Below, one piece after another: positions 4,896 to 63,740 of a stretch of 64,000 bases of DNA. Below the pieces are notes generated by a model. It saw nothing but the letters and a program-made list of their open reading frames with translations, made no database searches and was not told the DNA's origin. The number at the start of each line of letters is the position of its first letter. Within the stretch, counting starts at the first letter, position 1. A program made the position numbers and the translations under genes. The stretch covers positions 21,680,358-21,744,357 of the forward strand of contig OY987244.1 of assembly GCA_963920765.1 (NCBI GenBank), read 5' to 3'. Source of the DNA: Ulota crispa (lineage: Eukaryota; Streptophyta; Bryopsida; Orthotrichales; Orthotrichaceae).

Positions 4896-5151
4896 TTAAC
4901 CCCTAAAGGATGTTGCTTACCAAAATTGTTAGATGTATTCATACAAGGATTGTTTAGTACTTGAAAAAATGACTCTATGAAAAATGTCAAAAATTCCCCA
5001 AAAAAATCCAAGTTGATTGGTAGTATGTTTATGACTTGGTTTAAAATTTACAACTCCAATAAAATTCATGTGCTGCCCAAATACCCCATTCCTATACAAC
5101 ACACGAGAGCGTATACAATATAGCAAGTTAGCAACATCCTTTAGGGGTTAA
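4896..5151. mobile_element. TTAA-flanked MITE, 256 bp
   Basis: TTAA followed by CCCCTAAAGGATGTTGC at the left; GCAACATCCTTTAGGGG followed by TTAA at the right. The terminal repeat is at least 17 bp and perfect. Bases outside the two TTAA copies differ (TTCCA versus TCACC), so the duplication is exactly TTAA. Shortest member of the group in this window. Confidence 0.85.
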
Positions 5152-5342
5152 TCACCAAAAAACTCACCTCCATTTGCATGGGGCAAATATGATTGAACTT
5201 AACTTGATTTGGGCAAAAGTGACATTTATATTGTAAAGCATGAGTTGTCAATTTGTCTAAAGAAGTTATTTCTATTAACATCATAAGTTCAAAATTCTCT
5301 ATTATAAGCATTGAATGTCAAGCATTAGAAGTTAAGTAATGT

Positions 5343-5518
5343 CATAACATTGTTAACCAAGGGAAGGCATCCCTCCCAAGATACCTGGGGGAAATTTGGT
5401 TGTAATACTCGCTCTGAGCCAATCAGAATGAGAATATTATAACCAAACTCCCCCAGGTATCTGGAGAGAGATATACCTCCACCCGGGGGAAGACATTCCC
5501 CTGGTTAACATTGTTATG
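5343..5518. mobile_element. Small foldback element, CATAACATTGTTAACC termini
   Basis: The ends CATAACATTGTTAACCAAGG and CCTGGTTAACATTGTTATG are inverted copies, with further inverted blocks inside (GATACCTGGGGGA / TCCCCCAGGTATC). Related copies lie at 12611-12820 and 13388-13580. No clear target duplication. Confidence 0.7.
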
Positions 5519-6283
5519 GTGTGTTTGTTACCCAAAACTTGAAATAACAAAAAGCAAGGAAATGAGAGGAAAGACATGAAAAGGAGGGAATAAATTTACC
5601 TCAAAAATCACCAGAAATTAAGAAAGCTACAGGACAAAGCGGGTGCAAGACTGCAAGGCATACTCGTAATGATTGGATTACCAGAAAAGTTACTAGACCC
5701 GGATGACCGGATCTGTTTTTTTTATCTTTTCTCTTTTTTAACTTCGCCATGAATCTGGTCAAAAGCAAGGCAGGCAGAATCTCATGACCCAAAGGACACT
5801 GACCACGACATGATCACACCCCAGTAAATGGGCATTGGTAGTTTAGTACTTTGGTACTGCTATGGAAATGCAAAATATCTATCACTGTGTCGACGAGTAA
5901 GGTTACTGCTATCTCTGGAGAAACCCCCTATAAGCAAAACCTAAACTAATAAAAAAAAAACCCCCAAAAAAACCCTAGGGAAGGAATTTGTGCATCTTCT
6001 ATTTTGCAATCCATCCGAAGAGCGTTCTATTGCAAGGGAGCTGTGCGACACGAAATGCAAGGAAAATATTCAAGGAGTGCAGAGAAACGCGGGATCCTGG
6101 AAAGCCATAATTTGACAACCTTGTTTAGAAAGCTGCAGAAATTGGAACCCACCGAGGAGGGCAATTCCGAGCAGCCGGATGCGCGCGCGCCTCTTGCAAG
6201 CAAGCAGAGGGACGCGGGCCTGTGCTGCTGTGCAATTGCGGATTATTCCGTGGTGTTGAAATAGAAGCTCGCAAGGCTCCATA
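5519..6283. other. Intergenic, no gene seen
   Basis: Mixed-composition sequence. Around 6004-6264 an 86-codon open frame is somewhat GC-rich (GCGCGCGCG near 6181) but shows no domain, splice context or codon pattern that would support a gene. Confidence 0.4.
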
Positions 6284-6285
6284 TA

Positions 6286-7405: not shown

Positions 7406-8819
7406 TAGGTAGAAACTTAAAATATGGATGTGAAGAATGAAGTGAAAATTTAAAATATGGCAGAAAAGAGTCAATGCTTTTTTACCCTGGTCTCACATTG
7501 ACATATCTGCAATAGATCAAGCCATGTAAGATAGGCATATTGATCATGAACATAATGTCATCAATATGTACACAAGGTGTTCATTTTAGAACTCCAATCT
7601 AAATATTCCAAAGATAACATATCTTCTTTGACACAAAAGATCAGCTATCCATAAGATAATTAGATTTGGATTCTAAATAAACACCTTTTGTACATATGAC
7701 GACACTATGTTCATGATTGAGACTGGGCATACCTACCTAGGGGGCATTTTTGAACAATGCTGCGTGCAACCATTGTAGGAAATTGCTTCTGGTCAGTCTC
7801 CGAGCAACATGTGGAGAAAACCGACTCCTAGCTCATTGCTAGCGGGTGGAACTAGGAAAAAAACCAATTGCATTTTGAAATTGCCGGCAAAAAACCGGTT
7901 AGATTTTACTAATTTTTTTAAATATAGCATATTACTATGTAAATTTAGACAAATATCTAGCACAGTCTGGAAGAAAACCGGTTGAATATGGAAAATGCCA
8001 GTTTTTAACTGGTGAAGGCCAAAAAAGTTCTCAAACAGTGCTCTAGGTCATAGCGTCCTTTTCTTTTTTCCAACCCTAGCTTTGTTCCAATTGCATCGAG
8101 AAAAGGCAGCCGCTGGATGGCGTACTGGCATTGCCTTTGCTTGTAAGATAGTCGGCTCATAAACCGTGCACCTTCTTAAATGTACCTTCCACATACATGT
8201 TGTTTTTCATTGTTTTTAGTAATGTACAGGTAATGTACATTTTAACCCCTAAAGGCCCAAGCACTGTTTTTTGGCAAAATAGTGATTTTGAGCAGCTCAC
8301 AACAAGTGGATGTTTCATCTTTTTCTTTGAAAATTTCACACATGATGTATCCAAGGAGTAGTTTTAAGGTCCAACAATTTTCATAACTTTCGACTACATG
8401 GTTCAAAAGTTATTGCATGATATGTTGTGTTTTTAAAACTCCGGGCAGCTTGGGCAGCTCAAAAAGCTTTTTTAAAAATTAAATTTTTTTGAACTTCTTT
8501 TTTGAAATTGGTTCTTTAGACTTATGTTTACTTGGGAAGCTTTTAACCATTCAATTTTGATTGATGATATGAAAGTTATGAGATATTCTAGTTTGTGGGT
8601 AGGTATGGCTCTTTCATATTATAAATCAAAATTGAATGTTTCAAAGCTTACCAAGTAAACATAAGTCTAAAGAACCAATTTCAAAAAAGAAGTTCAAAAA
8701 AAAATTTATTTTTAAAGAAGCTTTTTGAGTTGTCCAGGCTGCCCGGAGTTTTAAAAAAATAAAATATCATGCAATAACTTTTGAACCATGTAGTCAAAAG
8801 TTATGAAAATTGTTGGACC

Positions 8820-10621
8820 TTAACCCCTGAGTGCTCGCAGTTATTTCACATGTGAAGGAGGTTTGGTGAGGTCCTAGCCTTAAAGGTCTGTGCGTTTACT
8901 CAAGAATCAGATCTGCAAGAACTAACCTTAGGAATTGGAAGAGGGTAAGGTGTTGGAGGGGTGAGTTTGATAAACATGTGCTTTCACGGTTTGGTTCCGT
9001 AGCTTATAATGGTCAAAGTTCAGTTGAACCAGAGAATTTTGCTGATTTTTTGGGTCTTCTGGGTTTCCACTTGGTCGTACGTGTAGGCAAAGGCAAAATT
9101 TAGCTTTGTTTTTTTTACATGGTGTCCTCTGGGAAGGTAGGGAGTGGCCTGTGAAATTTTGGTTTGATTTGGAGATTTACCCAATTCATAAGAATTCATT
9201 GAATGAGCGTGTCTCGGAGCATCGTATGCCCCGTCAACCGGTTTAGTACAAGGAACTACCGGCTAGTTTGCCCCAAGTACTCGTACCCTGTTCCAGCTTG
9301 TCTCTCCCGCGTTTTGCTTCCGAATTGTTTGTTTAGCTAAATCTTGGTGGTTAGGGTTTGAGCACCTTCAAGCTGGCTGCTAGGGTTTAGAACAAAAAAA
9401 TTCAACACATTCAAAGTCCAATTGTTGTGGACAGAAAGGCCGGCAGGTTTGGAAGGGCCAATATTGCCACCTTTAGCAATAGTAAGGTTTAGGGTCACCC
9501 ACAAGCGTCAAACTATAAAAAATTTGGGGTAAGAAAATCAATCAATGAACTTTGAAAATAATATTGTCAGGAAATCAAAAATATTGGTATCAATTTCAAA
9601 GTTCCAATTGCAAGCATTGTTCACATAGATTTTTTGTCCAAAATCACTAAAATTGTATAGTTTTGTGTAAGGGTGCTAAAAACGATGTTCATTGGTTTTG
9701 GAATAGTGAGACGGGGCATTCAAAATTAGGGAATTGATATGTGTACCACACCCTTTGAACTACAATACCACACCCCCGGGGTAAATTTTAGATTTCTACC
9801 ATTAAAAATCTAAATTTGAGAATCTGGAATTCAGATTTGGACTTAGAGACCATGATTTAGTATAGAACCATGAAAAATTTGCAATTCAACAGCACCCAAT
9901 GAAAATGATTATCCTTTTTACAAACAAAAGTAAAAGTAACACTTTTCTCCCTAGCTAAACTTTTTCATTCAGAGTTGTTGCATTGCAACTTTTTTTATGG
10001 TTCTAGACAAAATCATGGTCTCTGAGTCCAAATCTAAATTCCAAATGCTCAAATTTAGCTTTCTAATAGTAGAAATCTGAAATTTACCCCGGGGGTGTGG
10101 TATAGTAGTTCAAAGGGTGTGATATAGTAGTTCAAAGGGTGTAGTATACATATCAAGTCCCTCAAAATTATCATATTAGTTACCCAAAACCACCTCTTTG
10201 TTACCCATAACCATCACTTCATCATTCATAAGCATCACTCTGTCACCCACAACCACAATTGAACCCACAAATTATTTAAAAAAAAAGGGCTGCATACAAA
10301 AACCAGTGCAATAAAAACCCATAAATTATAAAAAAAGGTTGCACTCTAAAACCACGCCAAAACACCATGCCGGTTCAAAAACCGGCACTCACCAGTCAAA
10401 CCGGTCGATAAAATCAAAAATGACCCAAAAACCTCATGGGTCTGCCAGATCAGGAATAACCACAAATGACCCCAGTCCATCAACCCGCTGACGTTCATCA
10501 TAAATCCTAGCACCTATGCATGGGTACTCTGTTATCACAAAGGTACAAACCTATCTCAGCAGGAGCCCTATTTTGTAATTCTCAGCGACATGATTCTGTT
10601 CCTGAGGCGCTCAGGGGTTAA
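8820..10621. mobile_element. TTAA element with CCCCTGAG termini (level 3)
   Basis: Left end TTAA-CCCCTGAGTGCTCGCAG; right end GAGGCGCTCAGGGG-TTAA. It sits at the TTAA of the sequence GGACCTTAA in the right arm of the level-2 hairpin; the left arm (around 8360-8375) preserves that site without an insert. About 1.37 kb once the level-4 insert is removed. No open frame of note. Its termini differ from the CCCCTAAAGG group, so it is a separate subfamily. Confidence 0.85.
9729..10161. mobile_element. Mutator-like foldback MITE with 9-bp duplication (level 4)
   Basis: Flanked by a perfect 9-bp direct repeat TCAAAATTA (9720-9728 and 10162-10170). Ends are GGGAATTGATATGTGTACC and its imperfect inverse; the arms fold back over nearly the whole 433 bp. 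A short stretch containing TAGTAGTTCAAAGGGTGT is duplicated near the right end. A 9-bp duplication is typical of Mutator-like elements. Confidence 0.9.
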
Positions 10622-11203
10622 AGTTATTCCTTGAATACATCATGTGTGAAATTTTCAAAGAAAAAAATGAAGCATTCATTTGTAGTGAGTTGCCCAAAAT
10701 CTAATTTGTCCCTCAAAGGGACAAGTGAGCTTTTAGGGATTAAGAAGGTGCACGATTTTAGAGCCCTATGACTTTCCACTTCAAAATTTCATAATTAATC
10801 TCACAAAACTCCAAAAAATTTAAAATAAGTTGAATTAGATGTCAATTCCTCCGAGAAAAATTTACTGAAAAATATTTCAAGAAATTTCACCTCCCAAAAT
10901 TCAGTTTCAGCCCTTAGATGCCCGGTTCTTGAGCCTCTTACCTTATACCTCCGACTCTCCGGACCTCCGGCTTCCCGAGTCCCGAGTCCTGACACTAACC
11001 GAAGATTCGCCGGGTTCACCTTTCTCGTATTTCAGGAAAACCGAAGCGCCACACCCTATTTCTATTTGGATTCGTCACCCACATTCAAGGCGGGCCTAAC
11101 TTTAGCCCCGCTTTTCCTTCCCAATTCTCATTCGCATCTCCTTGGATTCTTCCACATACCGCCCCTGCCCCTGCCTCTGCCCCTTCGTGACTCAAGAGCA
11201 ATA

Positions 11204-13734: not shown

Positions 13735-14388
13735 TTAACCCCTAAATAACCAAGGCCTTCTTTGAGCTTCTAGGAATTTGCTCCAAACTAAACAAAAAGC
13801 CAAAATTTTAATAAATTGTATCAATTTTTTTAAAATTTCAACCATACAAATTCAAACTAGATACATTAGACATCGCATAGGAAAAGAAAACACAACAATA
13901 CCACTTATGAATTGAAAGATTATAATGTTTGATCAAGAGGGTGTTAAAATTGCAAAGATGACTTCAAGTTTTTCAATCCTCTTTTCACATGTAAAATCTA
14001 TAATGTTGGTCACCAAAAAAATATGAGGTTAAACGACATAACACACATAACTCCAATCCGTTTACAGCTTTTCAAAATCTCTTTTACAATTTTTTTAAAT
14101 GAATTTTTAGTGTGAATTTTTCTCCAAGATTTGGTGTATTTGAGGTTTACTTTCATGAGCTCTCAACACTAAAAAAATCAAGATTGTAATGGACACCCTT
14201 GCACAAAATCTTAAATAGAAAATTCACAATCAATAATTTTCAAAATTGGGTTTTTGATTCTAAAACTAGACTTCAAAAAGAATAACTGTAAAATGAAAAA
14301 TACTAAAAATAGTTGCTTAGTTAAGTTTTATTGAACATCAAAATATCGTTGGCACCAAAATGTGGTGCCTTGGGCATTTAGGGGTTAA
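13735..14388. mobile_element. TTAA element, third subfamily, reverse copy
   Basis: TTAA-CCCCTAAATAACCAAGGC at the left and GCCTTGGGCATTTAGGGG-TTAA at the right. Internally it is the reverse complement of the 19411-20786 and 63091-63740 elements (shared AGCTTCTAGGAATTTGCTC block). 654 bp. Confidence 0.85.
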
Positions 14389-15915: not shown

Positions 15916-17115
15916 GAGATGGGGACACAAAGATCCATTCTTCACTCAAACCCCTCCCATGCAATCAATACTTTGCTAGATTTGAAAATTTATAATTACA
16001 TATCTTGAAAGTTTTGAGAATAGATTGAGAACATATTGGTGATAGATTGATGGTGGACTTGTAGTGATTTTGAATGCACTTCAATCATAATTTGATGTTT
16101 TTTCAAAAGTGTTTTTTCAATTACACTTTCCTAATATGATTGATGTCAAATATTAGTGCATTGTGTTTCTCTTTCTATCTACAAGAGGCTTGCTTGAGCT
16201 GATGGCAATTTCAAGCTCTAAAAGATATTTAACCCCTAAAGGACCAAGCCCCCTTTTGGGGGACAAATGGGATTTTGGGCATGTACCTATGGCTAAACTA
16301 CTTTGCGTGATTTTCTTAAACTTTTATGGATGATGGGGAATTCAAAGATTTATGTGGGCATCTAATTTTTTCTTCATTCCCACGTTTATTGAAGAAGTTA
16401 AAAATGAATTTATGGAAAATGGGCAAGATCAAGCAGCCCAAAAACTTTTTAAAATAGCATTAAAAACAAACAAAAATGTGAAATAGGTTCTTTAGACTTA
16501 TATATAGGTGGGGAGCTTTGAATCATTTAATTTTCATTGATGAGATGAAAGTTATGAGAAGTTTTTGTTTGTCGTTAGGTGTGGTTTCTCTCAAAACCAC
16601 ACCTATCCGCAAACAAAAACTTCTCATAAAGTTCATCTCATCAATGAAAATTGAATGATTCTAAGCTCCCTATGTATATATAAGTCTAAAGAACCTATTT
16701 CATATTTTTATTTTTATTAAATGCAACTTTTAAAGAAGTTTTTGGGTTGCCCAATCTTGCCTGTTTTTGGAAATTCATTTTTAACTACAAAAATCCCAAA
16801 AAGTAGATTAGATGTAGGTACATGCCCAAAATCCATTTGTCCCCCAAGGGGACAGTTGGTCCTTTAGGGGTTAAAAGCTAAGAATTTATCGGTGAAAAAC
16901 TAGAAGTCAACTAGTGAATTTAGCATATTTGATAGTGGAAATCTGCACTTGACATGGGTTCAAGGTATGGAGTTGGAATGGTCTAATCTTCAAATTTTAA
17001 TGCATATTGTCACCCTTTCTAAGCTTTTAAAATGTATAATTGGTTTCAGATTTGGTGAAGAGTTGATTACATGGGAAGGGTTTGAATGAGGAATGGATCT
17101 TTTTGTCCACATCTC
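15916..17115. mobile_element. TA-flanked element interrupted by a TTAA hairpin
   Basis: GAGATGGGGACACAAAGATCC after TA (15914-15915) and GGATCTTTTTGTCCACATCTC before TA (17116-17117). The terminal repeat extends about 70 bp with scattered mismatches. Removing the insert at 16229-16874 leaves about 560 bp. Confidence 0.7.
16229..16874. mobile_element. TTAA hairpin element
   Basis: TTAA-CCCCTAAAGGACCAAGC at the left, TTGGTCCTTTAGGGG-TTAA at the right. Arms of about 320 bp fold back on each other with the centre near 16555-16600. Confidence 0.9.
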
Positions 17116-17117
17116 TA

Positions 17118-19410: not shown

Positions 19411-20786
19411 TTAACCTCAAAACGACCCTGAGGACAGAATGTGTCTTTGACCAATTTTTGAAGTTCAATAAAATCTTACCAAATTATTATTTTTAGTAGT
19501 TTATGTTTTTGAACTTTTCTTTTTGAAATTTAGTATTAGCTTCAACAATCTAATTTTGCAAATGATTGATAATGATTTTTCTATGCAAGATTTTGTGCAC
19601 GGGTGTCCATTGCAATCTTGACTTTATGTAGTGTTGAGGGCTCTTGGAAGTGAGCCTCAAATACACTAAATCTTTGAGAAAAAATCACATTAGAAATTCA
19701 ATTAAAAATATTGTAAAGTAGATTTTGAGAAGTTATAAATTAATTGGGGCTATGCATGTTAAGCCATTTAACCTCATATTTTTTTGGTGACCAAGTTTTA
19801 AAATTCAACATGTGAAAAGAAGATTGAAAGACTTCAAATCACTTTAACCCCTAAAGGACCAAGCTCCCTTTTAGAGAACAAATGGGATTTTGGGCATCTA
19901 CCTATGGCTAAACTACTTTGCGTAATTTTTTGAAACTTTTATGGAAAATGGAGAATGCAAAGATCTATGTGGGCATCTAATTTTTCCTTCATTTTGACAT
20001 TTACTAATGAAGTTAAAAATGAGTTTTTGGGAAAAGGTTTAGATTGGGCAGCCCAAAATTTTCTTAAAAATAGCATTACAAATAAAGAAACATGTGAAAT
20101 AGGTTCTTTAGACTTATATATAGGTGGAGAGCTTTGAATCATTCAATTTTCATTGATGAGATGAAAGTTATGAGAAATTTTTGTTTGTGGGTAGGTGTGG
20201 TTTCTCTCAAAATCACACCTACCCGCAAACAAAAACTTCTCATAAAGTTCATCTCATCAATGAAAATTGAATGATTCTAAGCTCCCCACCTATATATAAG
20301 TCTAAAGAATCTATTTCACATTTTTGTTTGTTTTAATGCTATTTTTGAGATTTTTTTGGGCTACCCAATCTTAACCTTTTCCCAAAAGCTCATTTTTAAC
20401 TTCTTCAATAAATGTCAAAATGAAGAAAAATTAGATGCCCACATAGATCTTTGAATTTCCCATCTTTCATAAAAATTTCAAAAAATTACGCAAAGTAATT
20501 TGGCCACAGGTACATGCCCGAAATCCCATTTGTTCCCCAAGGGGATAGTTGGTCCTTTAGAGGTTAATAGTTTTAACACCCTCATGATCAAACATTATAA
20601 TCTTTCAATCCATAAGAGATACTATTGTGTTTTCTTTTCTAATGTGATTTTTAACATTTCTAGTTTAATTTTATAAGGTTACAATTAAAAAAAAAACCAA
20701 TTCAACTTATTAGAATGTTGACTTTTTGTTCAAATTAGAGCAAATTCCTAGAAGCTCCAAAATTTCTAGGGCCGTTTTGGGGTTAA
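19411..20786. mobile_element. TTAA element, third subfamily, carrying a nested TTAA hairpin
   Basis: TTAA-CCTCAAAACGACCCTGAGG at the left; CTAGGGCCGTTTTGGGG-TTAA at the right. Minus the insert at 19844-20567 it is about 656 bp, matching 63091-63740 (650 bp) along its length. Confidence 0.85.
19844..20567. mobile_element. TTAA hairpin element nested in 19411-20786
   Basis: TTAA-CCCCTAAAGGACCAAGC / TTGGTCCTTTAGAGG-TTAA; foldback arms of about 350 bp. The copy at 63091-63740 shows the host sequence without this insert near 63515-63530. Confidence 0.9.
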
Positions 20787-23767: not shown

Positions 23768-24734
23768 TTAACCCCTAAAGTGCTAAACACCTTTTCTTTT
23801 GGTAACATAGCGTTGTTTTTTTTTTGGAAACATAGCACTTTTGGGCAGCTCACTACCAATGGGATTTAGTTTTTTTTTCTTAAAATTTTCACACATGATG
23901 TGTTTGAGGAGTAGCTTTTAGGCCCAATAATTTTCATAGCTTTTGATTTCATAATTCAAAAGTTATTGCATGATATGTAGTTTTCTTTACTTGGCAGGCA
24001 ATCTAGGCAGCTCAAAAAACTTTTTCAAGAATTGTATTTTTTAAATTGTATTTTATGAAATTGGTTACTTAGATTTATATATACATGGGGAGCTTTAAAT
24101 CATTCCATTTCAATTAATGAGATGAAAGTTATGAGGAAATTTTGTTTGTGGGCAATTATGAATTCTTTATTCTAAAATAAACTTTGGAGTCCTTTATTTT
24201 TCTCAACTTTCAATATTTTAGAAAATAAAAACTCTCAAAAGATGTAGAATGTTTATCTCAATATTACAAGCATTGGGATTGGAGTTTTTCATTTCCATAA
24301 TTAAGTTCTTAACAATATAGTGGTTTGAATCATTCTCTACTTCTTTTTACTTACTATTTGCTTTCCATGTGTTTTACAATTCCAAATAATTTGAAAGTTT
24401 TCAAGTGTGTACCAACTTGCTTTGAAGAACAAATCCAAAAAATTACAACCATATCAGAAAAAAATCAAAAAAATATGACCTTATGAAGTGCAACTACCCA
24501 AATTTTTGCAGAGACAAAAAAATTGCTTTTTGTCAATTCAAACTCAAATATCTTACAATTTGCATGGCACGATTTCTCAATTTTTTTTTTCACACCTTTT
24601 GATACTAGTGTAATACAAGATCTTATGGCTACATTTGCCAAAAAATATTTTTTTCTAAAATTTGGTACTTATGCTAGAATTGACAGTTTTGGAGCTGTTT
24701 TGGTGAAAACTTAGCTTAGGACTTCAGGGATTAA
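23768..24734. mobile_element. TTAA element, long non-symmetrical subfamily
   Basis: TTAA-CCCCTAAAGTGCTAAAC at the left and AGGACTTCAGGGA-TTAA at the right. The left ~350 bp is the arm seen in the hairpin copies; the right half is different sequence shared with 40852-41789. The last 60 bp are duplicated in tandem just outside (24735-24794). Confidence 0.8.
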
Positions 24735-24794
24735 TAGAATTGACAGTTTTGGAGCTGTTTTGGTGAAAACTTAGCTTTGGACTTCAGGGATTAA
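24675..24794. repeat. 60-bp tandem duplication of an element end
   Basis: Units 24675-24734 and 24735-24794 differ at only two positions that I can see. Each ends in the terminal repeat plus TTAA, so the element has two successive right ends. Confidence 0.85.
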
Positions 24795-27450: not shown

Positions 27451-28919
27451 TCAACTTGTTGTAGGAGGAACGTTACCCAACGTGTCACCACCCTGCAATT
27501 TTTGTTGTTACATTCATAAGTATAAGGGCAACCAAAACGCACAGGACTCTATTCATGCAGTATTTACGTTACTAATAATTTCTAATAATTACTATTTTAA
27601 TTTAATGGATGAACGTGCATGCATGGATGGTCCTATAAATTTTCTCAAAACTTGCATGCCTTTGATGGGGTTTGTGAACCCATGGTCGAAAAGCTTAGCC
27701 TGTTAAAGACCACACACATTTTCCCAAAATCCACTAGAAACCGGGACAAAAGAATTTGATGTGCATTTGAATCAAATGTGGACCCAATTTGAAGAATCCA
27801 ATCGTACAAATATGAAGGATATCTTGTTTGTTGCAATGTATCAAAATTTCAACTAGATTTATCATTGGAGGTGAAATATTATAATGATTGAGTGAGCCGT
27901 ATATGGAAAGTCTTTAGTTTTTCATGCTTGTGTGGTTTTGAATGTTAACTCTTCATGCTAGCTTTGGTTGAGAAGAGCCTAACATTTCTAGAAAGCAGGG
28001 TTTCCCACCTTTCCAACAAGACTAGTTTCACATGAAATAGACAAAAATAGCAATCACAAAGTGTAGCTAAGTGGACAAAAAGGGTCAAAAAACCCATTTT
28101 CTTTGCTACCCTAAAACGGTCCTACAAGAAATTTGAAAATTGTTACAAAAAATCTGATTGGTGAAAGATATCAAGAAGTAACCTTAAATGTAGGATGAAT
28201 TTTTTTATAAATAAAATGATAATATCATTTTAATAAATTCTCAAATACTACAATTGTACTACTACTGTATAGAGAAACAATACAAGCGTATTTCTTAAGT
28301 AATTTGAATTTTTTTAAGATTGCACAATTGAAATGTGACATTCTTCTTAGATGTTTGATGTATTGTGTTGTTGTTTTGATCCATCTTTGACCAAATATGA
28401 ATATGTATTTTGAGGCCATGATATATAAACATCATTATTTATCAACTCACATATCCAATTCCATTGTCATTTTTTGGGTTGGATGCAAAATTCTTGTGAT
28501 CACAAGCGTTCTTCAAGATCATTTTCCAAAATATTGAACAATTTTACTATATAGGCCAAAAACTACTCTCACGAACCAAAATATGGTTCGGTGGTCTCTA
28601 AACGGTTAATTACAATTTATTATCAGAGATGGAATTTGGAAGTTTTGGATTCATTTTCGTATTCAAATATATTCAAGTAGTGTATTAGTGCGAACCAGTT
28701 CTCATCCTAGACTTTGTTTGTTTGTTTTTGTCAATCACTTCCATATTGTAATCAGTTATGTGACTTGTGTTATACAGTGTTCCCACATGTGATTTTCACA
28801 AGTGGCTGTAATGTATTAAAAATATTGTAAAAATAAGTGCTAAAACTTCAAATTTTTAACACCAGATTGTGGCCATATGTAATACACCACATTTATAACC
28901 ATAAAAAAGGTTTTAAAAG
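27451..28919. other. Intergenic, no gene seen
   Basis: AT-rich sequence; no paired termini or coding sequence recognised. Confidence 0.35.
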
Positions 28920-40851: not shown

Positions 40852-41789
40852 TTAACCCCTAAAGGACCATTGTCCCTTTGGAGGACAAATGAGATTTTGG
40901 GCATGTACCTATGGTTAAACTATTTCATGTGATTTTTTGAAACTTTCATGGAAGATGGTGAATTCAAACATCTATGTGGGCATCTAATTTTTTCTTCATT
41001 CTGACATTTGATGAAGAGGTTATGCAAGAATTTATGAAAATTTGGGGAGGATTGCTTGTAGGGGCAGCCCAAAAACTTCTCCAAAAATTGCACTTTTTAA
41101 AAATAAGAATTTGAAATTGTTTCTTTAGATTTTTTTGTATGTTTGGAGCTTTGAATCATTCAATCTCAATCAACAAGATGAAATTTATGAGGAGTTTTTG
41201 TTTGCGGGCAATTACAGATCCTCTACTCTAAAATAAACTTTGAAGTCCTTTGTTTTACTCAATTTTCATTATTTTGGAAAACAAATTAAATCAAATGAAG
41301 TAGATTTTTTATCACAACATTAGAGCCGTTGGGATTTGCACTTTTCATTTCAATAATTAAATTCTTAACAATTTAGAGTTTTGACTCATTCACTACTTCT
41401 TTGCACTTACTATTTTTTTCCCATGTGTTGTGTAGTTCCAATTGATTTGAAAATTCTCCCACAAATACCTAACTTGATCTCCTACATGGTAAATCAAAAG
41501 CACAGCTTTGGGTAGAGCAATTTTATTCATGTAAGAGTGGTCAAAGGCTTTTGAAATTATTGAAAACAAGGAAAAAAACCTTTTCCCTTCACTTTGGATG
41601 CATTATCTCCCTCCTCTCCATCTAGAATGAGTTGATTTTTTCCCCACAAGTACCTCTTCTAGTCTAAGGCAAGATCCTACAGTTGGAGTTTCAGGAAAAA
41701 AAAAAAAAAAAACCTTCTAGCTCATCATTTAGAAGTGACAGTTTTCAATGATTTTAGCAAAAAAAAGGGCTAGGTCCTTTAGGGGTTAA
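40852..41789. mobile_element. TTAA element, long non-symmetrical subfamily
   Basis: TTAA-CCCCTAAAGGACCATTG / CTAGGTCCTTTAGGGG-TTAA, 938 bp. Left ~350 bp equals the hairpin arm; the right part matches 23768-24734 (CTAAAATAAACTTTG, CATTCACTACTTC). Termini are the best preserved of this subfamily. Confidence 0.9.
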
Positions 41790-42143: not shown

Positions 42144-42908
42144 TTGTATCCATTGGGGTCCTAGGAGCAAACATAATTGTATGTGTTTTCTTCTCATATC
42201 AGAATGCAGACAATAATCTTTTTGTGGAGACAAGGGAGAAAGGGTCCATTGTTTAGGTTAACCCTTCAACAACCAAAAGGCCTTTTGCGACCAGTACAAT
42301 GCGCAATATTTTTCATGTATTTGGAATGGATCCATGCCTTTACTACATTTGAGACCAACAAAGAAGTTGGAGAATAGATCAATGCAGTTCTAGTGAGATA
42401 CTTGAGATCCCAAATTAGAATTTCTTATTGGTAGCAAATGACAATTATATATCAGCGTATATACTATGTCCTATGGTCATTTAAGGATTAACCCCTCATC
42501 GTTGGTGGATCTCAAAATACACAAGAACCAAGGAAATTTTTGTTCGCTGAGAAAATCTTCTGCCACACGCCAAATGAGCCCTTTGCGTTCAACCCTTAAC
42601 GGCTTCTCCGCTTCAAGTCTCCAACAGTATTGTACTTGTTGATGTACAAGAGTGGGGCCTTTCAAGCTAAGCCACACTCAATGTAAATTCCAACTTTGTA
42701 TAGGTCCCCTCCACGGCTCATGTCACACACAAGAAGCAAAAACAAGGAAATTAGGGCGTGAAGGCTCTCTGGCAATATTGTTGCTTTGTTGGAGGGACTT
42801 CATGCTAGGCCGAAGGGGAACTTCACACCTTGTTGTGCTACTTGCTACTTCTGTCCCCTCCAAACCTGGTTTCCAGGCCCTTGTTTAAGCAGGTGGTAGG
42901 AGATGCTC
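42144..42908. other. Intergenic, no gene seen
   Basis: Moderate-GC sequence with several short frames on both strands. A partial inverted repeat (GCCCTTTGCGTTCAACCC versus CAAAAGGCC blocks) may be an old element. No gene supported. Confidence 0.3.
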
Positions 42909-43650: not shown

Positions 43651-44605
43651 TTAACCCCTAAAGGACCGTTGGCCCTTTTGGGGAACAAATGAGATTTTGG
43701 GCATGTGCTTACAACTAAACTACTTTGTGTGATTTTTTGAACCTTTTATGGATGATGGGGAATTCAAAGGTTTACATGGGCATCTAATTTTTTCTTCATT
43801 TTGACATTTATTGCAAAAGTTATGCATGAATTTTTGAAAAACAAGGGAGGGCGGGTAGCCCAAAAATTTCTATCAAAACTGCATTTTTTAAAAATTAATT
43901 AATTAAAACTGGTTTTAGATTTGTACATGTGTGGGAAGCTTTGACATTGAATCTTGATTGATGAGATGAAAGTTATGAGAAGTTTTAGTTTGTTGGTAGG
44001 TAGGAGGAACTCCCAAACCTCCATTCTTTTGCCCATTGTAAAATTTTGTCTTTACTTTTTTGAGCTCTTTGTGTATATGTTTTTTGAATTTCCTTTTTTC
44101 TGAGTTGTAATAGACTAAGACTCCTTGGTTTTCACCATTTGGATTAAAGTAATTTAGGTTTATGAATTTTACATAAAAATCCTCCATTTTTGCCTAGAGT
44201 ATACGCAAATTTCATGGCCTTACAACATTGCAAGATTTTACAAAGTATGATTCACACCTCCAATTCATTTGAAAATTCTCTCACACATACCTAATTTGGT
44301 CTTCTACAAGGAAAAAATAAACCTCAACTTTACATAGAGCAGTTTTTTTGATATAGGAGCAATTATAGGCTTCTCAAAATTTTGGACACCAAGGAAAGAA
44401 ACTTTTTTGTTCACTTTAGATGTCAATATCTCACTCCTCTACATCTAGAATGAGCTAGTTTTTTTCTTAAAAGTACCTCCCATAATCTAAGACAAGATTG
44501 CACGGTTAAGTTCCAAAAAACTTTTTCCTACCTTTCTACTCATTCCCCAAAAGTGACAATTTTCAATCACTTTCACAAAAAAAGGCTTGAATCTTTACGG
44601 GTTAA
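43651..44605. mobile_element. TTAA element, long subfamily
   Basis: TTAA-CCCCTAAAGGACCGTTGG / GGCTTGAATCTTTACGG-GTTAA, 955 bp. Same subtype as 29344-30294. Confidence 0.85.
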
Positions 44606-45283: not shown

Positions 45284-46004
45284 TTAACCCCTAAAGGACT
45301 AAGTGTCCCCTCAGGGGACAAATGAGATTTTGGGCATGTACCTATGGCTACATTATTTTGGGTGAAACTTTTATGGAAGATGGGGAATTCAAAAATTTAT
45401 GTGGGCATCTAAAGTTTTCCTCATTCCAACATTTATTGAAGAAGTTAAAAATAAATTTATGAGAAATTTTGTATGGCGGGTAGCCCAAAAACTTCTTTAA
45501 GAATTTCATTTTTTTAAAATAAAAGTTTGAGGTTAGTTCTTTAGACTTACGTATATGTGGGAAGCTTTGAACCATTCAATTCTAATTGATGAGATGAAAG
45601 TTATGAGAAGTTTTAGTTTGCGGGTAGGTGTGGAAAATCTCAAAACTATGCCTACCCGCAAACTAAAACTTCTCATAATTTTCATCTCATCAATTAGAAT
45701 TGAATGATAAAAAACTTCCCAAATATACGTAAGTCTAAAAAGCTAACCTCAAATTTTTATTCAAAAAAATACAATTTTAAAAGAAGTTTTTGGGTTGCCT
45801 GCCAAACAAAAATTCTCATAAATTCATTTTTTTAAACTTCTTCAATAAATATCAAAATGAGGAAAAAATTAGATGCCCACACAGATATTTGAATTCCCCA
45901 TCTTCCATAAAAATTTCAACAATTTACACAAAACAGTGTAGCCATAAGTTCATGCCCGAAATCCCATTTGTCCCCGTAGGGACAAGTGGTCTTTTATGGG
46001 TTAA
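45284..46004. mobile_element. TTAA hairpin element
   Basis: TTAA-CCCCTAAAGGACTAAGTG / AAGTGGTCTTTTATGG-GTTAA. Foldback arms of about 350 bp, centre near 45640-45660. Confidence 0.85.
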
Positions 46005-54069: not shown

Positions 54070-56718
54070 CGCAAACTCACGGCCGCACCCCGCGCCTCGC
54101 TCGCTGCAAGCGCTCCGATCGAATGAGCCCCGCTCGCTCACCGCTCTGCCTCAGCAAAGCTAGCGTCGCAGGCACAGACTGACTGGACTGCATTGGACTG
54201 CATTGGACTGCATTGTTGTCCCTCCGACTTCGAAATCTCGCTCGCTTCTCTGCCCACCACGTCAGGCAAGCATCTGTCCGTGGACGAGCTTCTCCCAGTC
54301 AACTTGCGCGCAGTGCAACCAGCACAGACATCCAGTTCATTCATTAAGCAGGAGCTTAGTTGTCGCTCTCATCATGGGGCTGATCATCAGTCCTCCCTAG
54401 CGAGCTCGCAGTTATTGTGCTTGTAGCCTGCAAGCGAGAGACCAGAGAAGCTGGAGCGGCGATCGAGCAGCTGACGACTGACACGCTGTCCATCATTGTG
54501 TTGACGATCGATCGATTGCAATACAAGGGAGTGAGAGAGGGAGAGAGGAAGAGAGGGAGAGAGGGAGAGAGGGAGAGAGGGAGAGAGAGAGAGAGTCAAG
54601 GCGAGGGTTTAGTGGTACTAGAAAGAAGAGCCGACCGGGGACGTACTACAACTAGACTACGGATCATATTATAAAGGAGCTGCACCATTAATGATCAGGA
54701 GGAGGTAGCGAGCGAGGAGGTTGCACACGAGCAGGATCAGCTGGCGGGAAGCACAGCTAAGGTAACGGAAAGTCGGAACTCCACAGGGATGGTCAGGCAA
54801 GCGCGTGTGAGGGTGTGCCATGTCTGTCTGTCTGTCTGTGCAAGTGCGTGGCAGGCCAGATTCTCGCGTAGGCGTAAACTCCTCATGCGCCCACCATGGA
54901 AGCCTAGCTAGCTAGTTACTTAGGGAGCCGGGAGCGATGCCCCAGGCGGGCTCGACGGCAGGCCAGGGGGCTGCTGTTTGACGTACTGTGTGGGGGGAGT
55001 AACTTAAACGCAATGCGAGTCAATACGTCGATCTGGCTCTTTTGGTCCGTGTAAGGCCGGCCAGTAAGTGGGTGGCATGCACCTGTCCTGGGGTGTTGCT
55101 CGCATTGATGAGGGCTGTCTGTCTTGTGCACTCGAGAAGCCGTTTCTCTCTCTCTCTCGCCATCGCACCTCGCGCTGAGTTAATTGCCGAGCTGGGAGCG
55201 AGATGAGTGCTGTTTGGGGGGTGCACCATTTAGTCGTCTGCCGCTTCCTCTTTTTTCCGCCTGTCCTGGTCTGACCAGCGCGGTGTTCTGGAGCCCCGGC
55301 CTCACATCGCCATCTCGGGTTGCCAGAATCGGAACCAGCAGCAGCGGGTGGGTGCAGGGGAGATATTAATATTACTGAATATTATTATTTTAACACCTGT
55401 GTGTCACTTGCTGTTGTTACCATTGCTGAAAGACGAGTGTCACCCTGTCAGGTAGTAACTGCACCCCTGGCTGCGTCGTCGTCGGTACGTGCCCCCCCGG
55501 CCCCCTCATTGCCTGTCAAACTTCGTCGACAGCCTGCATCGCTCTCCATTACCGCCTTGCCTTAGATTGCACCGATCGCACTCAATGTCACCCCGGCCTC
55601 ATTGACAGCCTTGCTCTCACTAGCTCTCGCTAGCTCGCACTAGCCACTTTCGTGTCTCTCTCTCGTTCAGAGGCTGGTCACCGCCTTAGTTTGGGTAAAT
55701 TTGTACAGGAGTCGTCCGTGCCCCTGGTTTAAGGATCGCGTCAACATTGGTTTGATGAGTGTTTTTGTTGCCCAAGCTACAGTCCAGCCCCATTGGCTTC
55801 GGGATCAAGGTTCCAGAGCTAGCTAGTTGTACTTCGTGAAAGCGAGGTTTGTGGCTGTACGTTCGCAGTTTAGGCCAACAACTAGCCTATCTAGTCTAGT
55901 CTAGTCAGTGGGCCGGCGTCGAAATTGCTCCTTGCGCTGGTCTGATGATGGTAGATTCACAATAGACCTCTTTGCCTTCACCCCCTCTCTTACTCCGATC
56001 TTCTGAAATTTGAGCGTCGACATGGCGAATGGCTGCGGCACTGCGCAACTGATCTCATCCTGCTCTCGCAGTAAGCCGTTTCGCACACAATGCTTCAATC
56101 TCACTTCGGAGAGATGATCTAGTCTTGTGTGTCCCCAACCTCGTGTTTTGCCCGTTGGAGGCTTGAGGCGAGTGGGTCACCCTCCGATCCTCGTTCCTCC
56201 TACACTATGTCTTGTCGTGCCAGAAGCTGCTACTATAGTGGTCAATAGATTCACAAGACCGGGTGTAATTTGTGAATGTAGAAGAATTCTTAGCTTTAGA
56301 GCGCTAGAATGCCGCACCAGCCAGGGGTTGTAAGAGAGCTGAACAGAGTGCAAGCTAGATCAAGTTATAATTTTACGTTACCGAGTCCACGAATATTCTC
56401 TTTGTCTGAAAGTCATAGAAAAATGAGCGATATTGACTAGAAACCAATATTAAATGGAACGACTGTCTCGGCTTGATCATTTCTGAAGAATTTGATTTTC
56501 ACCGGTGCCTAACATGACTGCAGCGTGCAGTCCCACCGACCATTTCAAGAGGTAGTTGAACGAGCTGCTCTGACGCTGTTACTCGTGTGCGTGTGTGTGG
56601 GGGTGGGTCGGTCAGGTCTTCCCAGCCGTGAAAGCTGAAGATCGACATCGAAGACTGAGCTACGGTGCTGAAGTCATTGTTGGCATCACCACTCTCACAG
56701 TGAGTGGGGTCACAACAA
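54070..56718 (+). other. Putative 5' leader region of the bHLH gene
   Basis: GC-richer DNA with a three-fold GGACTGCATT repeat (about 54185-54214), a GAGAGG microsatellite (54531-54594) and many short upstream ATGs. Donor-like AAG-GTAACGG at 54760-54768 and acceptor-like TTCCCAG near 56618-56624, or CTCACAG at 56694-56700, would allow a leader intron. No long frame or domain argues for a separate gene. Confidence 0.4.
54531..54594. repeat. (GAGAGG)n purine microsatellite
   Basis: GA-rich tract on the plus strand in the putative leader; such tracts are frequent in plant 5' leaders. Confidence 0.9.
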
Positions 56719-59330
56719 ATGGACAAGCTGCAGAGGACAATGGGAAGCCACTACAGCCTCACTCTGGATCCCTCGAAAGGCGGCCTGGCGTTACAAGAAG
56801 CTAGCACCCAGCACTCGCTGCAGCAATTGTCGTACGATCCCAGCTTCGCCGAGCGAGCGGCCAAGTACTCCACGTTTGGAAGCTCGCGCTACACGCAAGC
56901 TGGATACTCATCGTTCGACACCGGAAGGCTCCGAGACGTGCTGGAGAGTGAGAGCATGCGAGCCATTCCCCGCAACTCCAGCTTCTCCTCCGAGGAAGAG
57001 ACGAAGCCCCGGAGCAGCGACAGGGGAAGCCCCGGCGGAGAATCCCTGGAGGGAGCGAAGCGAGGGGTCTTGAACACGGAGGCTTCCAGCGAGGGGCTGG
57101 CATCGCAGGAAAACTCCTCCGGCTCGGCTCCCCCCGCCGTTGCTGCTACCGCTCCTCAAAGGAAGCGCAAAGGCACTTCCACTTCCGCCGTGAAAGAACC
57201 TTCAACTGGCGGAGAGATCACAATTTCCACTGGCAATGCTGCGTCCGTTGAAGCGACGGAGCAAACGTCGTTGAAACGGCAGCGATCTGACGGGAGACTG
57301 AAGGCCGAGCGCAGCGGCAGCGAGAATTCGGGAGACTCCAGCCCTAGATCAACCTTGAAGGGCGCCACTTCCAAGCCTCCGCAGCAAGTCGACCAGCTCC
57401 CCAAGCAAGATTACATCCACGTTAGAGCACGGCGAGGCCAAGCCACCGACAGTCACAGCCTTGCTGAACGGGTATGCTCCCATTCCTTCTCCCCTTCAAT
57501 TTTTGCGTGTTAACATGCTTTCTTCCTCGGTACACAGATTCTTAAGACCGCATATCGTGAAGTCTCCTACTACAGTCAAAGCATTCCTGTTCAACGACGA
57601 TGCTGTGGACGTCCAACTATCAAAAATAGTATTCCTGCTTTATTCTTCGGTCTTTGACTCAAGCTAATATCCAATCCGGGTCTTCGATCTTCACAGGTTC
57701 GCCGCGAAAAGATTAGCGAGCGCATGAAGTTCCTGCAAGATCTAGTACCCGGTTGCAGCAAGGTAACACTCTTAGTTAACCGTGCTGCTGTCAAAGCTAA
57801 GTAAACTCACTAGTCTTGCCAGTCCGAAGGTCGATCTAGATTATGATGTCAAGCTGTTTTACCGAGTTTTTCTAGCATTTTAGCACACGGAATATCGACT
57901 GATGTGGCGGGGTTGTACGCGAACACGTACAATTTGCAGGTGACTGGGAAGGCCGTCATGTTGGACGAGATCATCAACTACGTGCAATCGCTGCAACGCC
58001 AGATCGAGTTTCTGTCCATGAAGTTGGCCGCCGTGAATCCGCGGCTGGACTTCAACTACGAGCAGCTGCTCGGCAACGGCAAAGACTTGCTGCAGTCGCG
58101 GTCTCCCGAAACCACGTTGCTGGGCCCGGACCCACTGGGCTATGGCGACCTGCACTGCCATGGCCAAGTGCCTCTGCCCATGCCCGCCTTGGACATGCGC
58201 GGCTTGGAGGGCCTCTGCGACTCCTATCTGCGCCGCTCTCTGAGCGTGCCCTGCATGTCGACCTTGGTTTCTGACGACCATTTCAGTGATCCTCTCTCTC
58301 AGGTAATTAAACTTACTAAAACACACTTCTCACTCTGTTAATCTAGCCAACATCACTCACTAATTAACCACTGATTACACTAATCAACCATTGCAACAAA
58401 ACTAATTGTTGATCTCACTACAAACATTGGTTCAGTGCGTGTGACATCAATACACATCAGTCTGAGCACTATTTGTAACATATCCCAACTACTGTAGGTA
58501 GGATTTTAATTTTACCCGTGCTACTTTGAGATGATTGTTTGTAGGCTGATGTAAGTAATACGGGTGGTTTTCGAATGAATCAATGCTTCACAGGCTGTGA
58601 CTGTCTGCAACGGCGATCTTCAAAGTGTCGTGGAGATGGGGTTTATCCAAGGCAGGCAAGGCTTGGGTTTGGGTTTAGGCACCACCCAACACATTCATGG
58701 TACTTGATCACTCACTCAACCTTTACATTGTCAACCATCTGCTCAACTAATAACCAAATGTATGAATTTTTTTGTATCAACTCTTTAGTGTGCGCATTTC
58801 TTTTTTTTGAATTCTTGCCAAATCAACTTACATTACATCTATTATATACAAAGACTGAGGTAATCGGTCATATTGCTACAAAAAAAAACGTTATCTGAAT
58901 AGTCGAACATTACTTTCGATGAAAGAAGAGGTTTTTAACCATCAGTTAGTCATCCCGAAGAGACCAGTTCGAACGGGACTTTCGAACATCGAGATTTCTA
59001 AAGTTGATGATGCACCATGCCACTCCAAGCTACTAGAACGCCATATTCGTTAATTTGGGAAGAAATCCTGATTTTGGGAATGAACTAGGTTTGAGGTAAG
59101 CACCTTAAACCGAGTTAAATGCTTAAGGTGAAGTACAACTTGGGAATCTGATTTTCCTAAATTAACGAATATTATGGCTTTCGAGACTCTGACATAGTTT
59201 TGTATCCCGTTGTAGACAATATAATCCGCGTGCTTTGAAATTCTCAGCTCTAACTAGCGTTAGCCAATTTGCGAGTGTTGCAGGGTCGTCGAGTATGTGC
59301 TTGCCAGGCAAGTTAAAGGTGGAGTTATGA
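56719..59330 (+). CDS. bHLH transcription factor, plant subfamily XII (CIB/BEE/bHLH49-74-like)
   Basis: Five coding exons: 56719-57471, 57697-57762, 57940-58302, 58594-58699 and 59284-59330, all with GT/AG introns, giving 444 residues. The first three junctions are phase 0; the fourth splits a glycine codon. Residues 37-54 ([18 protein letters not shown]) are the N-terminal motif of this subfamily. The bHLH domain (about 240-295) has [13 protein letters not shown] before it and the H246-E250-R254 triad expected for E-box/G-box binding; helix 2 contains [28 protein letters not shown] (exon 4) and the terminal KVEL (exon 5) are further family landmarks. The middle is low-complexity and Ser-rich. 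Nuclear, dimerising regulator by family; the target pathway cannot be told. I chose ATG 56719, since the frame upstream offers only GTG. Introns are 225, 177, 291 and 584 bp. Confidence 0.93.
59037..59180. mobile_element. MITE inside intron 4 of the bHLH gene
   Basis: AACGCCATATTCGTTAATTTGG at the left and AAATTAACGAATATTATGGC at the right, 144 bp. It is a short internal-deletion relative of 37204-37460 and 53394-53646 and lies 104 bp before the acceptor of the last exon. Confidence 0.8.
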
Positions 59331-59947: not shown

Positions 59948-61513
59948 CCTTCCCCTGATTACAGTTGTAATCTCTTGCTCTTGCTTGTCCTCTTCGATTC
60001 GCCTCTGTGTTCTCCAATTAAAGAAGAAGCCCATCAAGCCTTGGAATACCATCACGTCAATGAAAAAAAATTGGGTTAATAAAAAACTCAGCTTTGTTGA
60101 GTTAATAAAAGTGAGTCTAACCACTCCTGGATCCCCATAACGGTAGGAGTAGTAGTATATCTAGCCTGGAAACAATCGGGTCTTGATAGATGGATAAAGG
60201 CAAATAGTTCCTTTGCATACTCAAGTTCAAGTCCAGATTGACTGTAATGCACTACCGTGCAATACTGACTAGTTCCCAATTTTGTTAGACAACAGAAGGA
60301 CAAAATGAAATGCTAATAAAATATATGAACACTTGAAGCAAACTTAAGAGATTGTTGAGGCTTGGCTCCAAAGATAGATTTCTATTCTTGATGCACTCCT
60401 ACTCTTGCCCACTTTGTCGGTATCAGTTTTGCAAAGAAGTGATGCCATGGAAACATTTGTAAATGAACCAAGACTTAAAATATAAGGTGAGTTTATAAAT
60501 CCCAACCGAATCCGAAGTTTGGCTCGCCACCAATTTGTTTTTGAGAATTCAATGGATGTGGCAGTGTGAAATTGCTCTTCGTAGTATTTTTGAAAAGAGC
60601 AAACTTAAGCTGTCCTTTTCTCAAAACGGCTTTGCTCATTTCTACAATCAACTTGCTTCAATGTCACTTTTATTCAAATCTGGATTATTCAAGCAATTTC
60701 AGACTTTTTGGACTTGTTTAATTTTGATCTATGCAAAACATCAAGAAAATGCCCAATGTTTTGACAAGACGTCATCTCTCAATATGGAAGCAAAATATGG
60801 GAGCTCATACTTTTAAAAAATGAAAATTGGATATTTAATTATGGACTTTGAACAGTCCACATTTAGTTAACCATGGCATATTATTTGATGCAATGGTGAA
60901 GTTATCCGTTGAATTGAGATTTGCAGCAAAGGTTAGAAATAGTTGCAACTTGAATAGGACTTGATTTGAAAAATTGTGGAGATGCATTATAAAACAACTT
61001 CAAGAAATAATTCAATGTTACTTTTTGAACAAAAGTTGAAGATAAACTGACACAATCAGTTCGGAGATCAATTCTTGCAATCAAATGGGAATAATCTGCA
61101 TTGAAATGAGAATAATCTGGGTCCAATGAGACCAAGAATGAGCTCACAAGTAGTGCGTGGATGAAGTGAAAGAATCAGAATAAAAATACCTACTGATCAG
61201 AACCCAAAAGGAAACCTTCGATCTAGTCTCATTATAGGCTCTATTCAAAGGATTGTTCGTTTCAGGTACGCATTCAAGAGGCTACATGGGTGCACAGCCA
61301 TTTTAATTCCTCATACCTGGACATTGGAACTGTAGTCTGCAAAATTTGAGCTGAGTGAGAGGGCGATTCTTAAGCTGTAACCTTTCCGAAGCAAACTCAA
61401 CGTAATCAACTACATCTAATTGGAACACCTTCCTTGACGCCAAGCTCCAAAAATCTTGCACAACAAATGCGTATTCAACACCACCTTACCATCAAAAATC
61501 TCTTAGTTTTCAC
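59948..61513. other. Intergenic between two converging genes
   Basis: No supported coding sequence. Probably contains the 3' untranslated region of the minus-strand gene at its right end. Confidence 0.4.
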
Positions 61514-62880
61514 TCATTGCTGAGAGTTCTTCTCCTGAAATTTACTAAGTAATCCTCCTCGACCAGGAAACTTGCTCTCAGTCTCCTTCATGGCCTGGCT
61601 ACCTGCCAGCAAAGCATCTCGTTGAGCCGTCAGCCTTTCTCTTCTGAGTTCCCGTCGTCGGTCGAGCTCATCTCGCAAGCTCCCTCCCTCCGCCACAGGG
61701 GTTGATGACCATTTATTACTGTCACTCTGCATCAACAACCGTTTGGAAATATTGCAAGTTCGATAAGTCACAATGTTGGCTTCGTTTTTTTTACGACATT
61801 ATCTGCATAACTTCTGTATTATTAAAAAGAGTTTATACCACGCTGTATAAGTTACATCTTTCAACCTGTAAGTGCCTAGAAGGCCACATGGCGGCTTCTT
61901 ACGTCACAGAAATCGAATCTGACGCTACAATTTCAGTCACTTCATAGAGCTATAGGACTCTAGCAACATTTTGTTATTCATCTACTAGAATTGTTCAGTA
62001 CAAACAAAACAAAAATCAAAGTGAAAAAATGAGCTTTTGGATAATCGCAGCTTTCAAGAAAATCAACTTTCTTTTGGCAGTCCATATGTCCATATAAGGT
62101 TTTGTTCAATTACGAGAAATTCCATTCATATGTGTACATTTATATGTGTGTTCGTTAATCTTAAGTTCATGTTGTCATTCAAAAATCTATAAATCAAATT
62201 TATGAAAGCCATAAGTAAGTTCGAGCTTGTCCTATTCTGAAGTCATTAAAAAACTCATCGATTGACAAAAAAGTAAACTCCGATACTTCTTTTTCATACA
62301 ATCCATAACCTCTAAAAGGAAACTTGGTAAAACATGAGAAGAAAGAAGTGAAAATGACACTCAAAAATGAGAAAAAACTGCACGCCGTTTGAGATTTAAG
62401 CTATCCCATTGAAAGATTGAAAGAGGACCAGACTTGAAACAACAAAAACAGACTAGGACATGCATTATAGCTCATGTGATTACTAACCGTCGAGATTCTT
62501 GTGGACGCGGCGGCCTTCTTCTTGGGCTCGGTCTTGGCTTGAATCTTGGGCTTAGGCTCTTTCACAATGGGCTTCCTGGGAATCTTTCCTCCCTTGGTGG
62601 TTCCCAGCAGTGAAAAATTAACGCCACTCCAAGCAGACTCGTTGTCGATGTCCCATCCATACATGCGCGCTGGAGCGAGGGCATCTCGACTGTTGGAAAG
62701 CTGAGCGAGGTCGTGTGATTGCACGAGCAGTTTCTCCACTTTCTCCCACTCAATTCTGTCCATGTACAGGGGATCGTCCAGAACTTCCTGAGCATAATCA
62801 GCCCATTCATGCAGCATTGTCCCCTTGAGGTTCTTCGTCATCCACCGGAGGTAACTGTAACACCACAGGCCCAACCGCAC
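61514..62880 (-). CDS. Partial unrecognised gene, last two exons
   Basis: Two minus-strand coding exons, 62880-62488 (131 codons) and 61726-61514 (70 codons plus stop), joined in phase 0 across a 761-bp GT/AG intron. The first begins after an AAG acceptor reading VRLGLWCYSYLRWMTKNL, so earlier exons lie upstream; I find none up to 64000, where an element fills much of the space. The first exon is aromatic- and Trp-rich with an acidic helical stretch (EWADYAQEVLDD), then a Lys/Pro-rich linker (KEPKPKIQAKTEPKKKAA). The second is highly charged, probably helical (DELDRRRELRRERL), and ends KFQEKNSQQ. I do not recognise the family. Consistent phase, splice sites and conservation-like composition support a real gene. 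It converges on the bHLH gene. Confidence 0.7.
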
Positions 62881-63090
62881 CTTCACCACAATCAATCATC
62901 AATTAGAGTGATCATGTGCAGAAGGATTTATCACCTCTCCAGCAACTCAGATATGCAAGTATATAAACCTGATTACGAATTAGAATGCACAGAGTCAACG
63001 GAAAAATATTAAGCATCAGCATGACAAAGTTAATTGATCAGTTGCATCGAGGTCATCCAAACAAACAGCTCATCACAAATGTCTCTACCT
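62881..63090. other. Probable intron of the minus-strand gene
   Basis: Sequence upstream (minus sense) of the AAG acceptor at 62881-62882; no coding exon found. Confidence 0.4.
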
Positions 63091-63740
63091 TTAACACCTA
63101 AAGGACCCTGAGGACAGAATGTGTCCTCGACCTTTTGAAGTTAAATAAAACCTTACCACATTACTATTGTTAGTAGTTTATACTTTCAATTTTTTTTTTT
63201 GAAGTTTTGTTTTAGTTTCAACAATCTGATTTTGCAAATGATTGATTATGATTTTTCTAAACAAGGTTTTGTGCACAAGTGTCCATTGCAATCTTGACAA
63301 TATGTAGTGTTGAGGGCTCTTGGGAGTGAACTTCAAATACACTAGATCTTTGAGAAAAAATCACATTAGAAATTCATTTAAAAGTATTGTAGAGTAGATT
63401 TTGAGAAGTTATAAATTAATTGGGGCTATGCATGTTAAGCCATTTAACCTCATATTTTTTTGGTGACCAAGTTTTTTAATTTGACATGTGAAAAGAAGAT
63501 TGAAAGACTTTAAATCACTTTCCCAGTTTTAACACCCTCATGATCAACATTATAATCTTTCAATCCAGAAGAGATATTGTTGTATTTTCTTTTCTAATGT
63601 GATATCTAACATGTCTAGTTTGATTTTAATCGGTTACAATTCAAAAAGAGTTGATACAACTTATCAAAGTGTTGGCTTTTTGTTCAAATTAGAGCAAATT
63701 CCTAGAAGCTCAAGAAATTCCAGGGTCCTTTAGGGGTTAA
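63091..63740. mobile_element. TTAA element, third subfamily, uninterrupted copy
   Basis: TTAA-CACCTAAAGGACCCTGAGG / CCAGGGTCCTTTAGGGG-TTAA, 650 bp. Closely matches 19411-20786 without its insert and lies in or near the 5' part of the minus-strand gene. Confidence 0.9.

Follow-up and report, generated by a model that had tools for sequence, protein, structure and literature searches.

The DNA transposons of land plants are usually described from the hAT, CACTA, Mutator, PIF/Harbinger and Tc1/mariner superfamilies. The piggyBac superfamily has also been recorded there: a 2015 survey placed PiggyBac among the superfamilies found in all groups studied, including 80 land plants (PMC4438587), a review counts it among the plant superfamilies (PMC10794571) and an animal survey lists insects, fungi and plants as its sources (PMC10813416). 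The first three bases of piggyBac terminal inverted repeats (TIRs) are CCC (PMC10813416), the strict terminal motif being CC(C/T)T, and the CMITEs are piggyBac-derived miniature inverted-repeat transposable elements (MITEs) of corals (PMC2872659). Here we analyze a window of the Ulota crispa genome (the whole 64-kb stretch, part of contig C3 of a 274.8-Mb genome), in which thirteen TTAA-bordered elements had been predicted from the letters alone. With a probability of about 0.88, the window elements are non-autonomous piggyBac-superfamily MITEs, several of them snapback palindromes, mobilised at TTAA by resident piggyBac transposases.

The coral CMITEs are likewise non-coding, with TTAA duplications and a resident piggyBac relative, but are about 100 bp long (PMC2872659), whereas the window elements measure 234-1802 bp, are often palindromic and reside in a plant. 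The transposase-bearing elements of this genome (5.0-5.7 kb where defined by homology or by a 12/12 TIR) fall within the animal piggyBac range of 1.23-9.51 kb (PMC10813416). With the piggyBac superfamily (solved transposases 6x67 and piggyBat 9c0f) the elements of this genome, MITEs and transposase-bearing copies together, share the TTAA duplication, CCC termini, the DDE_Tnp_1_7 domain and the catalytic DDD, complete in 10 of 18 aligned copies; they differ in their land-plant host, in the several deep lineages within one genome and in one copy that reads as three exons. The original prediction had called piggyBac unusual in land plants, and the host is indeed unusual, although the superfamily was already listed there at annotation level (PMC4438587). 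Among the titles and abstract openings listed from the open-licence literature, none described piggyBac MITEs in a land plant, and a fuller account may exist elsewhere; TTAACCCCTAAA was absent from the 30 papers listed of 119. A text match in a moss paper (PMC10619864) proved to be the word 'piggybacking'.

Target sites and termini of the window elements

All 13 predicted elements begin with TTAA followed by C(C/A)(C/T)C, and 12 have a clear inverted partner at the other end; 11 right ends came from the TIR search, and those of 43651-44605 and 29344-30294 from body homology. The exception is the degenerate right side of 29344, which has TTAAATCATCG at 30294 and no CCCC-type end, and was placed by homology to 44605 and a neighbouring TTAA. 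The TIR search gave 16 pairings in the window, some redundant, compared with 1 pair in 20 Markov-shuffled windows. As predicted, the bases outside the TTAA differ between sides: a duplication of at least 2 bp reaching outward past TTAA was seen in 0 of the 13. The 26 intact TTAAs among 26 ends are a biased rate because the 13 pairs were chosen using TTAA. Body homology recovered copies with altered edges (TTAG at 27695, ATAA at 3808 and TTGA at 35650), and the idea of a never-decaying TTAA was dropped as a selection effect.

Counts made without a TTAA requirement gave the same target. There are 11 exact copies of the 10-mer CCCCTAAAGG in the window, all of them directly after TTAA; when up to two mismatches were allowed, 22 of 75 window sites followed TTAA. 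A terminal profile, built from the same ends that were then scored, gave 13 window sites at a score of at least 20, 12 after TTAA and one after ATAA. Genome-wide, TTAA precedes 8154 of 9597 CCCCTAAAGGACC motifs (85%) and 1342 of 1493 CCCCTGAGCGCCC motifs (90%), the genome-wide check of TTAA that the original prediction had proposed, and the reversed 13-mer controls occur 3 and 0 times. Exact TTAACCCCTAAAGGACC is found 7 times in the window, about 3.7 times its genome density (8154 in 274.8 Mb). Among the 26 window ends, C stands at position 1 in 23, at position 2 in 24 and at position 3 in 23. The A-type termini (for example, 16229-16245) also include CCCTAAA, the plant telomere unit, possibly by coincidence.

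PIF/Harbinger (Tourist) elements duplicate a 3-bp TTA/TAA and Tc1/mariner (Stowaway) elements duplicate TA. A 3-bp duplication does not describe these sites, as four bases are retained on both sides. The nested insertions provide internal comparisons. When the flanks of 8820-10621 are joined with a single TTAA they match the mirror arm near 8364 through GGACCTTAAA; because the host element is a palindrome, the other arm of 8242-10743 serves as an internal empty site. At the position of 19844-20567, the paralogues 63091-63740 and 13735-14388 hold exactly 4 nt, TTCC and TTTG, a length that fits a TTAA duplication whose letters would have diverged. An empty site was also sought from the flank repeat of the transposase locus L018 in the window and none was obtained, because the window repeat stops at the insertion point.

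By self-comparison the A type comprises 8242, 16229, 19844 and 45284 (several palindromic), the C type, with A-type ends, 29344, 40852 and 43651, and the B type 13735, 19411 and 63091, together with one D element (8820-10621). The elements predicted at 8242, 8820, 19411 and 19844 are TTAA-edged, with the correction that 8242-10743 is split by 8820-10621 and 19411-20786 by 19844-20567. Homology to other genome copies adds four window elements, three with decayed edges (27695-28609, 3808-4761 and 35650-36545) and 42258-42491. Summed from their coordinates, the elements that are not nested, 15 in number, occupy about 13.7 kb, or 21% of the window. The elements are as follows (window positions; no strand assigned to any).

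3808..4761, decayed copy, left edge ATAA, right edge without TTAA; homologous to L028 6849-7818
4896..5151, MITE of 256 bp with TIR TTAACCCCTAAAGGATGTTGCT on both ends
8242..10743, A-type snapback MITE, about 700 bp minus the insert, interrupted by nested 8820-10621
8820..10621, D-type element, no coding detected, TIR TTAACCCCTGAG(T/C)GC, inserted at TTAA
9744..10124, palindromic piece within the D element, kin of the family at 31400-32506
13735..14388, B-type MITE of 654 bp, from TIR search and self-comparison
16229..16874, A-type MITE of 646 bp, from TIR search and self-comparison
19411..20786, B-type MITE interrupted by A-type 19844-20567
19844..20567, A-type near-palindrome of 724 bp, 87% identity to its own reverse complement
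23768..24794, related MITE, right end in tandem (60-bp copy), TTAA at 24734 and 24794
27695..28609, F-type MITE absent from the original prediction, edges TTAG / TTAA
29344..30294, C-type MITE, right end degenerate beyond TTAA
35650..36545, decayed copy, left TTGA (by homology), right TTAA; kin of L026 7994-8799 and L011 6846-7429
40852..41789, C-type MITE of 938 bp; 40854-41789 aligns to L022 823-1756
42258..42491, small TTAA element, kin of L018 7179-7777
43651..44605, C-type MITE of 955 bp, from body homology
45284..46004, A-type palindrome of 721 bp, from TIR search and self-comparison
63091..63740, B-type MITE of 650 bp, with the uninterrupted site corresponding to the 19844-20567 insertion

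One transposase lineage has CCCTTTA..GACC ends, which those of 27695-28609 resemble. Pfam six-frame read-through of three regions (8820-10621, 40852-45800 and 13735-24794) found no transposase in them, Rfam gave 0 matches at the gathering threshold and the terminus patterns had 0 matches in viral contig and genome contig collections.

Resident piggyBac transposases and their ends

The host genome carries several plant marks: a green-plant-type rbcL with an open frame on contig C157 (best matches PDB 9chz and 4hhh), TTTAGGG arrays close to the end of C1 and 40 matches to LTP_2. To our knowledge LTP_2 is a land-plant-specific family. On another contig (G000:C97:116673-120440, locus L030) one open frame fuses a protein of bacterial appearance, as judged by eye, with the latter half of plastid rbcL, and this contig is probably chimeric.

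A DDE_Tnp_1_7 profile search of the genome gave 120 matched stretches, fragments of single loci included, all above the cut-off (best E 1.3e-73). PF13843 was silent in 14 control genomes, a silence uninformative on other plants because the five that carry rbcL are all prokaryotes. We fetched 24 transposase loci (the 12 best rows, 4 with stop-free rows, 4 with few stops, then 4 more). Six stop-free frames from five loci rematched DDE_Tnp_1_7 at 1.2e-25 to 4.1e-67, and one stop-free frame matches the solved transposases 6x67 (4.1e-20; titled only 'Transposase', which we take to be T. ni piggyBac) and piggyBat 9c0f (5.8e-17). The 18 aligned frames are 29-81% identical to one another, and the 8 without a complete DDD are truncated or lack at least one D. 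The frames were analyzed over the DDE domain; piggyBac transposases typically also have a cysteine-rich domain at the C terminus.

Elements with TTAA and CCC-type ends surround several of these genes. L009 (1763-6790) and L018 (1897-6923) are 90.5% identical over 5029 bp and their alignment stops at the TTAA edges, beyond which the flanks differ; the left site of L018 reads TTCA. The roughly 5.6-kb copies L013 and L040, whose transposases share 71.5% identity, are similar from TTAA inward at both ends, and their right end is common to L021, L024 and L028, the last of which begins TTGA. L012 (5746 bp) has TIRs that agree at 12/12 and read CCCCTAAATGCC, like the B-type right end, a score reached by 0 of 273 control anchors. 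Judged by their letters, the ends of L013, L021, L024 and L040 resemble those of F-type MITEs and the ends of L012 those of B type. L039, which was picked for a D-type end 4.7 kb upstream of its transposase match, also has a far-side D-type end (14 of the first 15 letters), and its ends are possibly D-like. L040 was picked on the same criterion, but its D-type end was rejected as the end of its transposase copy, as it is part of a separate D-like element (66% identity to window 8820-9074).

Inspection of locus L027 by eye gives a stop-free reading of three exons joined at GT-AG borders, with VDE, TDN and GID..DQ motifs; exons 2 and 3, the exons scanned, match Pfam. Its candidate outer ends TTAACCCTTGCACGTCC / TTAACCCTTGCATGACC, TTAA/TIR pairs 7.5 kb apart, agree at 10/12. 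This transposase may still function or have turned into a host gene. L019 has an open frame with catalytic motifs and, since CCC-type ends do not flank it on both sides, could be a domesticated gene. The pair L037/L038 (C7, 18.20 and 18.22 Mb) was rejected as two transpositions because it is an inverted duplication wider than the element (99.95% over 5934 bp). Similar rows of equal or near-equal score in opposite orientation lie on C2 (36.77/36.78 Mb) and C10 (0.68/0.79 Mb), whether real or an assembly artefact.

Assignment to piggyBac and its alternatives

That the window MITEs belong to the piggyBac superfamily, proposed as a possibility in the original prediction from TTAA and CCC termini, is well supported by the target, the termini and the resident DDE_Tnp_1_7 copies with the same kinds of ends. 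Relatives of at least 5 kb elsewhere in the nuclear genome would encode the transposases, which would recognise the CCC-type ends of the MITEs, insert them at TTAA and duplicate the TTAA. The genome holds several diverged piggyBac lineages, and the F, B and possibly D end types of the window resemble the ends of particular ones that bear a transposase. We infer that these transposases moved these window MITEs, a specific partner for the A type among them, and that they may be active at present.

Several observations weigh against this assignment. No transposase-bearing copy with A-type CCCCTAAAGGACC ends was found among the 24 fetched loci, whose ends are resolved in part; the long copies with DDE_Tnp_1_7 that the original prediction called for were obtained in kind (L009/L018, L013/L040 and L012) but without an A-type partner. 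Blastn detected no interior similarity between window MITEs and transposase-bearing elements. CCCCT is the start of the A, B, C and D ends (position 4 is C in 23 of the 26 window ends), where the strict motif is CC(C/T)T; the terminus of the clade III transposase copies reads CCCTT. Only 10 of the 120 DDE_Tnp_1_7 rows are stop-free, most being interrupted by stops. Generic TIR pairing near 20 transposase loci gave best scores of 14, 13 and 12.5 for TTAA versus 14, 12 and 12 for AATT and was not used as proof because control tetramers scored alike. CCC-type TIR pairs of at least 10/12 were found at 9 of 22 transposase loci (5 kb each side), and also at 43 of 273 transposase-free window anchors (4 kb each side), 31 of them at 11. 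In two of the nine, L009 and L040, the best such pair differs from the homology-defined element. The pairs at L014, L039 and L026 (each 11/12) and L027 (10/12) are thus suggestive as element ends and could be chance pairings, since in such dense DNA chance alone brings unrelated MITE ends into pairs, which makes TIR-only ends of single copies weak.

Of the alternatives, the one that survives best, although unlikely, is that some MITEs, chiefly of A type, were mobilised by another TTAA-specific transposase (Kolobok, Sola3 or an uncharacterised one) with piggyBac merely coexisting. The missing A-type partner would fit, no search was made of this genome for Kolobok or Sola3 transposases, and Kolobok likewise duplicates TTAA (PMC9587614); however, Kolobok termini are 5'-RR (PMC9587614), unlike the 5'-CCC of the window, and a CCC(C/T)T.A..G.CC-like pattern is common to the A-type ends and to ends found on piggyBac elements. 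Convergence of a TA (Tc1/mariner) or TTA (PIF/Harbinger) transposase with a strong flank preference is very improbable: a TA duplication within palindromic TTAA should yield an identical final sequence, in which the duplicated part is inseparable by sequence alone, but the full TTAA precedes 85% and 90% of the two motifs unselected for it and the long TTAA-edged copies encode piggyBac transposases.

Taking the window elements as piggyBac MITEs, a wider and more tentative proposal, which we hold to be possible but doubtful, is that a multi-lineage piggyBac system has been a major builder of this land-plant genome. At two ends for each element, the 8154 exact A-type ends would correspond to about 4000 MITEs or more, and one transposase copy at least (L027) may be functional or a host gene. 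With its thousands of TTAA-bordered ends and its many lineages of piggyBac, this genome indicates that a land plant can sustain the superfamily well, and it prompts the question whether piggyBac was inherited from algal ancestors or arrived by transfer. Ends and transposases of piggyBac type that are native to a plant are also candidates for seamless gene insertion.

Other features of the window

Two palindromes of one family lie at 31400-32506 (1107 bp, 92% to its own reverse complement) and 38300-39358 (1059 bp, 85%). The first has near-identical 9-bp flanks, TAGTTCTAT / TTGTTCTAT, and would presumably fit a Mutator-type element. A 434-bp palindrome at 33318-33751 (94% to its own reverse complement) has GGGCAT(C/A)TGTAATGGCAC close to its ends. 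The short inverted repeat at 18697-18806 starts with ACTACAAGAAAAAGG, ends that we take to be reminiscent of CACTA. Frames at 56704-58341 resemble, on visual inspection, a bHLH transcription factor gene, with no Pfam match for the two frames tested singly. A low-complexity CCCATCCATCC-like repeat at 17984-18481 has long open frames on both strands.

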